Shown here one piece after another: positions 16,161 to 22,045 of a stretch of 26,720 bases of DNA. The notes under the pieces are model-generated. The model worked only from the letters and a program-made list of their open reading frames with translations, searched no databases and had not been told where the DNA came from. Each line of letters opens with the position of its first letter. Positions within the stretch are counted from its first letter, which is position 1. Both the position numbers and the translations under genes were made by a program. Origin of the DNA: a virus. The DNA lies in the IMG/VR virus record IMGVR_UViG_3300028027_000206, positions 1 through 26,720 of that record. One strand, given 5' to 3'.

Positions 16161-16220
16161 ATGATCTCGGATAAAATGCCGGACTTTTGCCTCACCAAAT
16201 CTTTTAAAAGTACAAATTGA
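16161..16220 (+). CDS. possible leader peptide coupled to the large terminase start
   Basis: A 19-codon frame (MISDKMPDFCLTKSFKSTN) whose TGA overlaps the TTG start of the large terminase gene as TTGA. This mirrors the ATGA coupling used elsewhere. It could deliver ribosomes to a weak start codon. It may also be chance. Confidence 0.3.
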   Translation: MISDKMPDFCLTKSFKSTN

Positions 16221-17515
16221 ATTACGATTTCAACCGGAATTGGTGGCTTAAATGGTATTGGCCTTTTGTAGAAAAGCTATACACGAAGGAAGGACATTAC
16301 GGAACCCGTCAATCAGCAAAGAGCCACAACATTGCCCGAAAGCTGATTTATCATTCCTTTCAACCGTATCAGTTCAATGTAATCCATTCGAGAAAGGTCT
16401 ATTCAGACATCGAGGGTTCGACCTTTACCCTACTGACCAATCTAATCTATAAACACTTCAAGAATGATTTCATCATCCGAAAGAATCACTTTGAGATCAT
16501 CAATAAGCACACGGGTAATTGGTTCAGGGGATTGGGGATGGACAAGGCCGAAAAGGGTAAGGGTGTGGAAGGGGCTAACATTGCATGGTTAAACGAAGCC
16601 AATCAGTTCACCCGTGAAGATGTGGATTACATTGATACAACCCTACGAGGGGAGACAGGCGTTCCCATATCGCTTATCATGGACTGGAATCCCGAATCCA
16701 TCAACCATTGGCTGAAAAAGGAAGTAGACGAAAACAAGGACAAGCCGGATTGCATATTCCACAAATCAACCTTTTGGGATAATTACACCATCGACCGTGA
16801 AGCACTACATGAACGATTACTTCGAATTAAGTCACACGGTTTGGAAGGCGAAAGACGCTATAAGGTTTGGGCGTTGGGTGATTGGGGAGTTGAGGACATT
16901 GATTCAACCTTTGCCTATTCATTCGAGGCTGACAAACACGTTATCAAGGGCAAGATCAACATCAAACCTCAGTTCGAAGTCTACCTGTCATTTGACTTTA
17001 ACGTAACCAACACCTGCGGAGTTTATCAGTTCCTCAAGAACGTGAAAGGCCAGAAATACTATGCGACAATCAACAAGATTAAAACCTATCGAATCGGGGA
17101 TTTAAAAATACTTTGCGAAACAATCAAAGCTGAATTTCCGAAAGCAAAGTTTATCATCAACGGAGATGCGTCCGGTCAAAACAAATCAGCGTTCACATCG
17201 GATAACATTTCGGCATACACAGCCATTAAATCACATCTGCAATTGAATGATATGCAGATTCAGGTCGCACCTGCTAACCCGTCACACATCCAATCGAGAG
17301 TTATCACCAACATGGTTCTGCAAAGGTGTAACGTCAGAATAGCGGAAGAAAATGACCTGTTGATTGAGGATTTAAAACAGGCACAGGTAGACCGAAAAGG
17401 AAGTCTTGACCCTTGGAAGCTAAAGAACCCGAACTTATCGCACAGTCTCGATGAGTTCAGATATTTTGTTTTCACAAATTTTCATGAAATTGCAAACGAT
17501 TACGAAATTGAATGA
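16217..17515 (+). CDS. terL: terminase large subunit
   Basis: 432 residues, the ATP-driven DNA packaging motor and nuclease. The N-terminal ATPase has a deviant Walker A, YGTRQSAKS at 28-36, and Walker B plus catalytic acid IAWLNEAN with E127. The nuclease part has acidic residues D260 (SFDFNVTNTCG), D317 (NGDASGQN) and D412 (LDEFRYF), as in the Terminase_3/6C RNase H-like fold. The start is TTG at 16217: a TAA lies in frame at 16205-16207, and the next in-frame ATG is past Walker A. It overlaps the next gene by ATGA. Confidence 0.94.
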   Translation: MNYDFNRNWWLKWYWPFVEKLYTKEGHYGTRQSAKSHNIARKLIYHSFQPYQFNVIHSRKVYSDIEGSTFTLLTNLIYKHFKNDFIIRKNHFEIINKHTGNWFRGLGMDKAEKGKGVEGANIAWLNEANQFTREDVDYIDTTLRGETGVPISLIMDWNPESINHWLKKEVDENKDKPDCIFHKSTFWDNYTIDREALHERLLRIKSHGLEGERRYKVWALGDWGVEDIDSTFAYSFEADKHVIKGKINIKPQFEVYLSFDFNVTNTCGVYQFLKNVKGQKYYATINKIKTYRIGDLKILCETIKAEFPKAKFIINGDASGQNKSAFTSDNISAYTAIKSHLQLNDMQIQVAPANPSHIQSRVITNMVLQRCNVRIAEENDLLIEDLKQAQVDRKGSLDPWKLKNPNLSHSLDEFRYFVFTNFHEIANDYEIE

Positions 17516-18136: not shown

Positions 18137-18466
18137 ATGAATCTAATTGTGGGGGTAAGCGGAGAGGGTGCTGCATTATTATGCCTGTTTCAGATTGCGA
18201 TAGTGTCGGCAATGCTGTCATTGTTCTTGGATTACCTGATGGATCATATGCCGCCTTTCCAATGGTATTTAAGTCAGTTAAGCCAACTGCCCGAAAACAT
18301 CGCAAAGCCGTTAGGTGAATGCCTTTTCTGTTCGGGTGCATGGCAATATCTTTTCATTTCAATTTTCCTCTTTAATCAACCTTTATGGCTTTCAATCTTT
18401 GGCCTTGGAATAAACCACATAAGCCTCAAACTACTGGCATTCTTACGTCAGAAGATCAACCTGTAA
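18137..18466 (+). CDS. membrane protein with CxxC motif (DUF1360-like)
   Basis: 109 residues with hydrophobic segments at about 11-33 and 70-105. The middle has 'KPLGECLFCSGAWQYLFISI', like the 'C-fC-g-W' motif of DUF1360-type membrane proteins seen in phages and Bacillus spores. A competing frame, 18127-18318, starts with ATGA at the previous stop. I prefer this frame for its length and motif. It overlaps the next gene by 82 bases, which is more than usual. Confidence 0.6.
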   Translation: MNLIVGVSGEGAALLCLFQIAIVSAMLSLFLDYLMDHMPPFQWYLSQLSQLPENIAKPLGECLFCSGAWQYLFISIFLFNQPLWLSIFGLGINHISLKLLAFLRQKINL

Positions 18467-19131
18467 TTCCGCAATACAATGGGACTGCCGACCGGAAGCA
18501 TTGGGATAAGATCAAGTTTGCGTTTCGTTCTGGCGATCGGAACTATTTCTGTTTTGGGCATGATATCAACATCCCATACGAACGGATGCACGCAGCCATT
18601 GACATTTACAGGGAATTGGATGCGGCAGTTAATCCGGTTTATCTGGATAGTCATTGCAAGGCCGTTGATGCGGTTCTGGAATCCGAGAAGATCAAGACGA
18701 ATAAGAAACTGATTGAGATCGGGATATTGAACGCCAGACTGAAAGAACGCAAAGAACTGGCTATCTCTGTTCAAGTGCAAATCAAACTGGCAACGGTCAA
18801 ATACTTTGACGAGGTTGAAAACCCATTCAGCTATCAGCACGATTACAACAAGTCAAAGATTGAACATTGGGCTAAGTATGCCGATGTTCCCACTTTTTTT
18901 TTGAGTCTGCCGGAAAATCAATATCTGACTACTGGAGACGAATTACAGAGGAGTTTGAACACCTATTTAACGGGGGAAACTCTGATGAATTTAAAGATGT
19001 TAGAGCATCATATTACATTGTTAGCCTCAGAGACTTCAAACGCAGATTCAGCGAAAATCTTAGCTTTGCAAAAGGAATGGGAACAGACCTTTCTCAATTG
19101 GTCGAACAACCCCTCTACACTTACTACCTGA
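18385..19131 (+). CDS. probable tail assembly chaperone, unshifted product
   Basis: 248 residues, a soluble, mostly helical protein located directly upstream of the tape measure gene. The N-terminal part has 'KIKFAFRSGDRNYFCFGHDI' and 'YERMHAAIDIYRELD', then a long helical region (LIEIGILNARLKERKELAIS) and 'PFSYQHDYNKSKIEHWAKYA' before a run of nine T. The place and likely frameshift are those of tail assembly chaperones (lambda G and GT type), whose sequences are poorly conserved. Beyond the T-run this frame continues for 76 residues to a TGA at 19129-19131. The role assignment is by context. Confidence 0.65.
   Translation: MAFNLWPWNKPHKPQTTGILTSEDQPVIPQYNGTADRKHWDKIKFAFRSGDRNYFCFGHDINIPYERMHAAIDIYRELDAAVNPVYLDSHCKAVDAVLESEKIKTNKKLIEIGILNARLKERKELAISVQVQIKLATVKYFDEVENPFSYQHDYNKSKIEHWAKYADVPTFFLSLPENQYLTTGDELQRSLNTYLTGETLMNLKMLEHHITLLASETSNADSAKILALQKEWEQTFLNWSNNPSTLTT
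18894..18902 (+). promoter_or_regulatory. slippery T9 run, probable -1 ribosomal frameshift site
   Basis: Codons ACT TTT TTT TTG contain nine T. Slipping back one base enters a frame that stays open to 19187, while that frame has a TAA at 18873-18875 and no usable start afterwards. The downstream frame ends at a TGA overlapping the tape measure ATG. Confidence 0.65.
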
Positions 19132-19187
19132 TGTACTCGCATTGGGTAGCATCACTTAAGCAAGACAAATCCAATGCGAAAAAATGA
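18900..19187 (+). CDS. -1 frame extension of the tail assembly chaperone
   Basis: 95 codons read in the -1 frame after the T9 run, beginning FESAGKSISDYWRR and including 'EEFEHLFNGGNSDEFKDVRA', 'SYYIVSLRDFKRRFSENLSF' and 'PLYTYYLMYSHWVASLKQ'. It looks like a well-formed protein and stops at TGA 19185-19187, overlapping the tape measure ATG as ATGA. It has no start of its own near the T-run, so it needs the frameshift. The shifted product would be 267 residues against 248 unshifted. Confidence 0.6.
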   Translation, partial: FESAGKSISDYWRRITEEFEHLFNGGNSDEFKDVRASYYIVSLRDFKRRFSENLSFAKGMGTDLSQLVEQPLYTYYLMYSHWVASLKQDKSNAKK

Positions 19188-21943
19188 GTACCTTAAGTAC
19201 CAATCAGATTGTTGTCGAATACATCATCAAGGAGGGTGATATTCGTAAAGCACAACAAGATTTTGATAAACTAACTGAGGCTGAGAAAAAGGCCGTTCTT
19301 GAAACCAAGAATCTGAATGATGCCATTCGCAAAACAAGTGATGAGTCCAAGAAACTAGGGGATCAGTTTAAAAAAACAACTGAGGAAGGTGTTTCAGGTT
19401 CAACAAAAACCGAAACGGCATTAAAGGCCATTGCAGGACCAATTCGACAAAATCGTGAGGCTCTATCAGCCTTTACATCTCAACTAAGAGTAGCAGGTGA
19501 TGTCGCCACCGCAGCAGCCAATAAAGCATCAGCAGGTTTTGCAGGATTAGAGGCTAAACAAAGAGGCAATGTCGCTGCCGCTAATGCGTTTCGTGGGAGT
19601 TTAGGCCAAGTAAATACAACACTTGAAACTACTTCTAAAACTGGTAAAAAAGCTACTGAAGATGTTGCAGGGGGGCTTCAAAATATTAATGGAATTGCTA
19701 CTAAAATAGGGCCATTAATAGCCGGAGCATTTTCAATAGCCGCCATATCTGCATTCACCAAACAAGTAATTGAAACAACCATCAAATTTGAGGGCTACAA
19801 CAAGGCAATTGAATTTGGATCAGGTAGTGCTGAGAACTTTGCCAAAAATCAAGAGTTCCTAACCAACCTAATCAATAAGTATGGTTTAGGTCTGGCATCC
19901 GCAACGGAAGCCTATAAACAATTCTTTACTGCATCAACTCTTGCCGGACAAGCACAAGACGAGACGAACCGACAATTTGAAGCCGTTACTAAGGCCGGAA
20001 CGGTTCTGAAACTGACCACCGATCAAATGCAAGGTGCGTTTATGGCCCTTGGTCAAATGATGTCAAAAGGTACGGTTCAGGCTGAAGAGTTAAGAGGCCA
20101 ATTGGGTGAACGTATTCCAGGGGCTTTCAGCATCATGGCAAAAGCCTTGAATGTAAATGAACGCCAATTGGGTAAGATGCTTGAGCAAGGTCAGGTTTTA
20201 TCCAAGACTGCACTTCCTGCATTTGCAACCGAACTCGAAAAGACCTTTGGTCCTGCTGCCGAAAGAAATCTAAATGGAATGGTCAATTCCCAAAACAGAT
20301 TTAATAACGCAATTGATAATCTGATTCTGGCGGTAGGGAATAAACTTGAACCATTCCTGAAAGGTGCTTATGATTTAGCCGCAGGAATTGCCAATCAATT
20401 GTCTGGAATTGGCGAAAAAGTAAAAACCCAAACTGCCGAAAATCTTGGTATGAAAAGGGCCGAAGCGGATATTGTAAAGCAATTGATTAAATACGGTGGT
20501 GATTTGACAGTTCAAAATCAAAAGTTCATCCGTCAGCAGGAAGCCGTATTACTTCTTCTTGGTATGGAAGAAAAAATTTATAATCAACAAGTTTTGGTGA
20601 CCGAGAAAAGAATAATGGCACAAAACGATTTTAATGGTGTGGCAACCAAAGCCCTAAAAGATGCTGAGAGTGAACTTAATATTTTGATTGCTGAAGAAAA
20701 GGAACTTTCAAAAATCGCAGGAATTGAGGTTAAAAGGGGCGAAGATAAAAAGATATTAACAGAAGCCGAAAAGAAAGCCCTAGAAGATCAGTATAAAATC
20801 AGGCTTCAAAACCTTGAACTACTTAAACAAATACGTCAGATTGAATTGACCTTACAAGGTGTTCCAGAAGCATCATTAATTGCTCAAAAAGAGTTTCTTG
20901 ACAAGAAATATAAACTTCAACTTGAATTCTTTGGAAAGGTTAAGCAATTGACAGAAACCGAAATCAAACTAACGGGAAAAGAATATGAAAAGAGCCTTTT
21001 CGATTTGAATAGATACTATGAAGGTCTGAAAATGGTCAATAAGACCGCAACGGCTGATTTTGCGAAAGAGAATACAAAAGTATTGGATGCAGAGCAAGAT
21101 GCCGGAATAATCAGAATGAAAAACTGGTCAAAAGCATATGAAGCCAACTTAGCCGATGAAGTAAAAGCAAAGAAAAAAGCGGAACTAGAAAAAGCAGAAG
21201 CAACAAAAATTTATTATGATTTAGTGGCCAATTCGGTTCAATCGCTTTTTGATATCCAACAACAAAACATTCAGAATGAATTGTCCTCATTAAGCCAAAA
21301 GTATTCCGAGGAAATCCGTCTGGCCGGTGACAATCAGCAGAAGGTTTTGGAGTTGAAACAAAAGCAAGAAGCCGAAGAAAAAGCATTACGAACAAGGGCA
21401 TTTGAAGCCCAAAGACAGGCCGCAATTGCTCAGGTAATATTTAATGTTGCCCCAATTATTGCCCAACATTTAGCAAAAGTTGTTACTGCGCCCCTAGCTA
21501 TTGCAGCGTACGCATCCGCAGCCGCACAAATCGCATTCATCGCAGCCCAACCAGTTCCTGAATTCAAAGAAGGAACGAAAGGTAAGCCATTCAAAGGTGG
21601 AAAGGCCATTGTCGGTGAGATCGGAAAAGAGTGGGTTGTAACTACATCCGGAGCAGTTTACGAAACACCAGGAGTAGCTACCTTGGTCGACCTGCCGAAA
21701 GGATCGCAGGTAATCCCACATCACGAGGTCATCAAATCAGAACGGTTCATGGGTTCAAAGCTGATGAATCAGGGCCGTGGTGAGTCTGGAACAGGGCAAT
21801 TGGTAGAAAGACTAATCAGTATTGAAAACACCTTATCAAAGCTACCAATCACATCCCTGACGATGGATGAAAGAGGCTTTACAAAAAAGATTCAGACCAA
21901 GTCGAGAGAAACCAAGATTTTAAATAATCGGTTCGGGAATTGA
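19184..21943 (+). CDS. tail tape measure protein
   Basis: 919 residues, the ruler and chaperoned core of the tail tube. After a helical, charged N-terminus and an Ala-rich stretch with a hydrophobic segment near 172-193 (IGPLIAGAFSIAAISAF), the tape measure domain spans roughly 195-400: 'ASATEAYKQFFTASTLAGQA', 'MQGAFMALGQMMSKGTVQAE', 'ELRGQLGERIPGAFSIMAKA'. A long coiled-coil-rich region follows. Near the end come an Ala/Ile-rich hydrophobic part (IAQVIFNVAPIIAQHL) and the typical 'GGKAIVGEIGKEWVV' block. The length points to a long-tailed phage. Its ATG overlaps the stop of the shifted chaperone frame. Confidence 0.93.
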   Translation: MSTLSTNQIVVEYIIKEGDIRKAQQDFDKLTEAEKKAVLETKNLNDAIRKTSDESKKLGDQFKKTTEEGVSGSTKTETALKAIAGPIRQNREALSAFTSQLRVAGDVATAAANKASAGFAGLEAKQRGNVAAANAFRGSLGQVNTTLETTSKTGKKATEDVAGGLQNINGIATKIGPLIAGAFSIAAISAFTKQVIETTIKFEGYNKAIEFGSGSAENFAKNQEFLTNLINKYGLGLASATEAYKQFFTASTLAGQAQDETNRQFEAVTKAGTVLKLTTDQMQGAFMALGQMMSKGTVQAEELRGQLGERIPGAFSIMAKALNVNERQLGKMLEQGQVLSKTALPAFATELEKTFGPAAERNLNGMVNSQNRFNNAIDNLILAVGNKLEPFLKGAYDLAAGIANQLSGIGEKVKTQTAENLGMKRAEADIVKQLIKYGGDLTVQNQKFIRQQEAVLLLLGMEEKIYNQQVLVTEKRIMAQNDFNGVATKALKDAESELNILIAEEKELSKIAGIEVKRGEDKKILTEAEKKALEDQYKIRLQNLELLKQIRQIELTLQGVPEASLIAQKEFLDKKYKLQLEFFGKVKQLTETEIKLTGKEYEKSLFDLNRYYEGLKMVNKTATADFAKENTKVLDAEQDAGIIRMKNWSKAYEANLADEVKAKKKAELEKAEATKIYYDLVANSVQSLFDIQQQNIQNELSSLSQKYSEEIRLAGDNQQKVLELKQKQEAEEKALRTRAFEAQRQAAIAQVIFNVAPIIAQHLAKVVTAPLAIAAYASAAAQIAFIAAQPVPEFKEGTKGKPFKGGKAIVGEIGKEWVVTTSGAVYETPGVATLVDLPKGSQVIPHHEVIKSERFMGSKLMNQGRGESGTGQLVERLISIENTLSKLPITSLTMDERGFTKKIQTKSRETKILNNRFGN

Positions 21944-21965: not shown

Positions 21966-22045
21966 GACGGACTACTTCAGTCATACTCTTTTTTTTGTTT
22001 TTTCGTTTGTTTTCAAAAAGCCCGGCTCAAAAGGTCGGGTTTTTT
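21966..22045 (+). ncRNA. possible small RNA between a promoter box and a terminator
   Basis: The interval starts about six bases after TATATTTG and ends at the 22019-22045 terminator. Near its start ACTGA (21963-21967) can pair with TCAGT (21977-21981), followed by a T-rich stretch. No open frame of note is present. This would be an 80-base transcript; no family is recognised and it may simply be spacer. Confidence 0.25.
22019..22045 (+). terminator. intrinsic terminator
   Basis: Eight base pairs, 22019-22026 with 22034-22041 (two G-T pairs), loop TCAAAAG, then five T. It ends the tape measure transcript and any short RNA from 21966. Confidence 0.8.

Follow-up and report, generated by a model that had tools for sequence, protein, structure and literature searches.

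The window analysed here, a 26,720-nt stretch of viral DNA, carries a gene for the terminase large subunit at 16217..17515 (+ strand; PHROG 3717, E=1e-34; Pfam Terminase_3, E=7e-25) and, at 19184..21943 on the same strand, a gene for a tape measure protein (TMP) of 919 aa (PHROG 18891, tail length tape measure protein, E=2e-53). Upstream of the TMP gene lies a 248-codon ORF (18385..19131, +; frame 0), which runs from an ATG at 18385 to a TGA at 19129-19131 and contains, at 18894-18902, a run of nine Ts (T9), the longest homopolymer of the whole window. In frame 0 the run is phased NNT TTT TTT TTG, and the heptamers T_TTT_TTT and T_TTT_TTG are both present, the former, at 18894-18900, conforming to X_XXY_YYZ in the zero-frame phase. 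The -1 frame is open from 18876 to a TGA at 19185-19187 that overlaps the TMP ATG at 19184, and its nearest upstream stop in the window is a TAA 21 nt before T1, the first base of the run. A shift on TTT TTT would join 172 frame-0 residues to the 95 residues of the -1-frame extension (18900..19187, +), yielding a product of 267 aa; the frame-0 stop is situated ~226 nt downstream of the slip site. The first-pass annotation had recorded the T9 run, 95 and 76 open codons after it in the two frames, and products of 248 and 267 residues, and all of its numbers were right, as were the TAA that it placed before the run and the TGA that it placed across the TMP start. When frame 0 of the window sequence alone was recoded synonymously, the -1 frame remained open in 59 of 20,000 trials. 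Flanking this region, an ORF at 18137-18466, encoding a hydrophobic protein of 109 aa with the motif CLFCSGAW, shares 82 nt in a different frame with the beginning of the 18385 gene and has a homolog in a 42-kb relative (L279-L281), and a T8 run followed by GTTTTT just past the TMP gene (21989-22001) may be part of a terminator.

Searches of IMG/VR returned 35 close loci (78-98% identity), and a TMP-fragment scan together with a profile scan widened this family of uncultured phages to members of 26-50% identity. T9 is exact in every close locus that covers the site; in the close loci that extend as far as the stops, frame 0 terminates at +235 and the -1 frame at +291 nt from T1, indels being absent, while the position of the upstream -1 stop varies from -12 to -78. 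The comparison of related phages that the first-pass annotation had proposed as a check was made on 63 non-redundant loci covering the whole region (26-98% amino-acid identity), and every one of these has a single T-run, always precisely nine bases long and identically phased, and keeps both frames. Homologs of the frame-0 ORF are of conserved length throughout this set, the extension from T1 measuring 78 codons except in four loci (71) and in one (84); the -1 extension spans 92-110 codons, and the profiles of both C-termini match in every locus. Neither a pattern scan of bacterial genomes nor a profile search in four bacterial genomes with related TMPs yielded homologs of the gene, and tblastn searches of the cultured phages in INPHARED with three family members gave no credible homolog (one search returned three hits, at E=0.7).

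The conservation extends to bases that the encoded amino acids leave free. The codon leading into T9 occurs in six types (ACT, GGT, GAT, GCT, AGT and TCT), such that its amino acid is variable and its wobble T constant. The wobble sites T1, T4 and T7 underwent zero changes on the substitution tree; by contrast, every degenerate column upstream varies. Elsewhere in the gene, Phe is encoded by 285 TTT versus 264 TTC codons, but at the slip site it is TTT every time. Because T1 and T4 are unconstrained by the shifted product, selection is acting on the slip-site nucleotides themselves.

The substitution tree was built from 25 unique sequences of close relatives, with changes counted by parsimony and no codon-model likelihood. 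Across T9, frame-0 wobble changes drop fourfold, from 3.60 to 0.87 per site (Mann-Whitney p=2.4e-13), second-position changes rise from 0.07 to 0.76 per site, and a single change point fits best exactly at T1. Upstream of T9, in the common N-terminal part of ~170 aa (18385..18893, +), the ratio of observed to expected N/S is 0.07 in frame 0, as against 3.79 in the unconstrained -1 frame and 4.20 in the +1 frame, which marks this part as coding in frame 0 only. In the overlap (18903..19131, +), the ratio is 0.59 in frame 0 and 0.58 in the -1 frame, as against 1.23 in the +1 frame, which holds 7-11 stops per sequence there, and beyond the frame-0 stop constraint is seen in the -1 frame only (N/S 0.52). 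Purifying selection in the overlap is equally strong in the two frames. Such a pattern marks true dual coding starting at T9, and the proposal that ~230 nt are read in two frames to give two products of similar length is strongly supported by the comparative data. Both frames have been kept functional over the same bases across 26-98% identity, so the end of the frame-0 form is specialised as well.

Because both frames are conserved in 63 non-redundant loci, chance or a read error is untenable as an explanation of this arrangement. Homopolymers are error-prone, but an error of sequencing or assembly in the T-run of one continuous gene is excluded by the relatives: nine Ts are found in 63 of 63 loci, both frames are conserved after T9, and the -1 frame upstream is broken by stops, which leaves this explanation with a vanishingly small probability. 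It is also very improbable that the locus holds two independent overlapping genes, the -1 gene being translated from an internal start or by translational coupling. An occasional GTG or TTG is all that was found in favour of such an arrangement, whereas the -1 ORF is without any ATG in 23 of the 63 loci and has its first ATG at +183 nt or later in the others. An independent internal start was rejected on this start-codon evidence. Constraint in the -1 frame, moreover, starts at T9, and the upstream -1 stop directly abuts the run in 4 of the 63 loci. Because of these four abutting stops and the 23 loci without an ATG, entry into the -1 frame must be at T9.

A programmed -1 shift at T9, by tandem tRNA slippage or by transcriptional slippage, is most likely. 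The first-pass annotation had called a programmed -1 frameshift; a transition at T9 is upheld by the run, its phase and the dual coding, but its ribosomal nature is not, T9 being suited to both mechanisms and no stimulator having been found. If the slip takes place on the ribosome, decoding would mostly continue in frame 0 to give the 248-aa form, and a fraction of ribosomes would slip back one base at T9, two Phe tRNAs moving in tandem on T_TTT_TTT, to give the 267-aa form, with its end fixed at the TMP start. We infer this mechanism and its product ratio, and consider a slip on the ribosome more likely than not. The phase of T9, which fits the X_XXY_YYZ heptamer, counts for ribosomal shifting, as does the recurrence of this phase in the A9 or A7 runs before related TMPs; the failure to find a downstream RNA structure or an SD-like stimulator tells against efficient shifting of this kind. 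Per-sequence folding of the downstream RNA gave MFE z-scores mostly near 0, and alifold on 56 sequences returned an empty consensus (both covering pseudoknot-free structures); an Rfam search detected no conserved RNA stimulator, and inspection by eye no conserved SD-like site among the relatives.

The failure of folding, alifold and SD inspection to reveal ribosomal stimulators also speaks for transcriptional slippage, in which RNA polymerase would add one U at T9 in some transcripts, fusing the frames; the resulting protein would be the same, and such insertion may contribute. Slippage of this type is known at nine-base runs, namely the A9 of Thermus dnaX and a run of Us in Shigella mxiE (PMC1088944), and T9 falls into the same length class: a run of at least nine A or T, as expected of a transcriptional-slippage gene, is present in all loci, its length never departs from nine among the relatives, and A9 runs occur in several phages with related TMPs. 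However, the T9 and A9 loci are always in the tandem-slippage phase, for which transcription has no need, one phage with a related TMP (L184) has A7 only, and positions T8 and T9 of the run are also explicable by two-frame coding. We regard transcriptional slippage as the source of the shift as possible, if short of probable.

Comparable runs precede related TMPs in other phages: runs of A9 or A7 with identical phase are situated at -1 ORF overlaps in a Larkinella prophage and several viral contigs, and runs of nine bases may recur widely at the site before the TMP. In L184, the ORF upstream of the related TMP matches a PHROG tail assembly chaperone (E=3e-6). Short -1 overlaps with an A9 run that begins at codon position 3 were seen before the TMP at L203:4361-4463 and in L167, L173, L180, L186 and L195, and upstream of its TMP a Rudanella prophage (L204:4116-4329) has open frames that overlap by ~214 nt with a -1 offset, without a long homopolymer. 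Polaribacter P12002L and Leeuwenhoekiella Arctus_1 were set aside as comparators: their pre-TMP gene reaches the TMP start in a single frame, where it stops, and has no evident relation to the gene described here. In the 42-kb relative, the gene order is terminase, dual-frame gene, TMP, further virion genes and portal; the portal follows the dual-frame gene by ~11 kb, with the tail module ahead of the head module.

The gene stands directly before a TMP gene, as G/GT genes do, and has a -1 transition at a slippery run that is conserved in the same phase in 63 loci, with both frames under selection; position and analogy favour its identification as a tail assembly chaperone pair. A short form ending soon after the slip site was not found: frame 0 stays open for ~75 further codons in almost every locus, and these are conserved. 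The first-pass annotation had foreseen a pair unlike the usual short and long forms, and the products are indeed of similar length with alternative C-termini. Its assignment to the G/GT type agrees with the position and the frame transition but finds no counterpart in a chaperone family or fold. Searches of PHROGs, Pfam and NCBIfam with both products gave no match to any family, chaperones included. AlphaFold models of the products were of modest confidence (pLDDT 64 and 77, the latter being the helical model given for the -1-frame extension, which has homologs in A6), and Foldseek and VIA-align searches with these models gave only generic helical matches and no chaperone fold. The lack of a match in sequence or fold would also suit proteins with some other head or tail role that are merely located before the TMP, the frame transition itself being real, as would the gene order of the 42-kb relative, in which the tail module immediately follows the terminase and precedes the portal, and in which a major tail protein was not identified. 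Such a role is rather unlikely, since the position directly before the TMP, a -1 frame that stops at the TMP start or close to it, the -1 direction and the slippery run are all as in the G/GT genes of many phages.

Returning to a chaperone pair, in lambda the TMP is bound by the G part and the tail tube subunit by the T part (PMC5009743). On the model of gpG/gpGT, we infer a chaperone role in which both forms would probably act on the neighbouring TMP: the frame-0 form would make up the bulk of the chaperone, and the -1 form, as the minor one, would recruit tail-tube subunits. The best explanation overall, which we advance with moderate confidence, is one gene with a common N-terminal part of ~170 residues and two separately conserved C-termini, reached through a ribosomal slip and forming a chaperone-like pair.

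Frameshifting in tail chaperones is usually viewed as a means by which a short, abundant protein is occasionally extended. We tentatively raise the idea that, in this phage tail-assembly gene, a nine-T run without the usual stimulators gives two alternative C-terminal domains from ~75 dual-coded codons over deep divergence, and thus a domain swap rather than an extension, possibly through transcriptional slippage. No description of a C-terminal domain swap in a phage tail chaperone, possibly by transcriptional slippage, was found in the searchable literature; frameshifts in phage tail genes are already known, but the retention of ~75 codons of true double coding for this long is unusual. The -1 frame stops at the TMP start or close to it, which is also the case in other phages; on this ground it is probably the older, T-like part, the frame-0 end having been added by overprinting. 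Codon usage in the overlap (-0.052 for frame 0 and -0.006 for the -1 frame) leans weakly towards the same order, with differences too small to date the frames.

Long dual coding is also a property of the trans-frame products of animal viruses, the alphavirus TF and the arterivirus nsp2TF. There, as here, a frameshift opens a long alternative frame over a conserved one to produce alternative C-termini; the present case differs in being a phage DNA gene with a different role, for which no stimulatory element was found. With the transcriptional slippage at nine-nt runs in Thermus dnaX (A9), Shigella mxiE and IS elements, the gene shares a strictly conserved, in-gene homopolymer that joins two frames. 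However, the shifted products of dnaX simply end early, and in mxiE slippage is required for the longer product, whereas both frames here continue as conserved proteins on the same bases. Similarly, the gene resembles lambda gpG/gpGT in its position before the TMP, the -1 direction, the X_XXY_YYZ run, the end of the -1 frame at or near the TMP start and the common N-terminal part, yet it has no detectable homology to known chaperones. It differs further in the distance from slip site to in-frame stop, ~226 nt as against published averages of 26 nt (SEA-PHAGES) and 36 nt (Xu phages; both PMC10885494), and in having two C-termini that are of similar length and both conserved.
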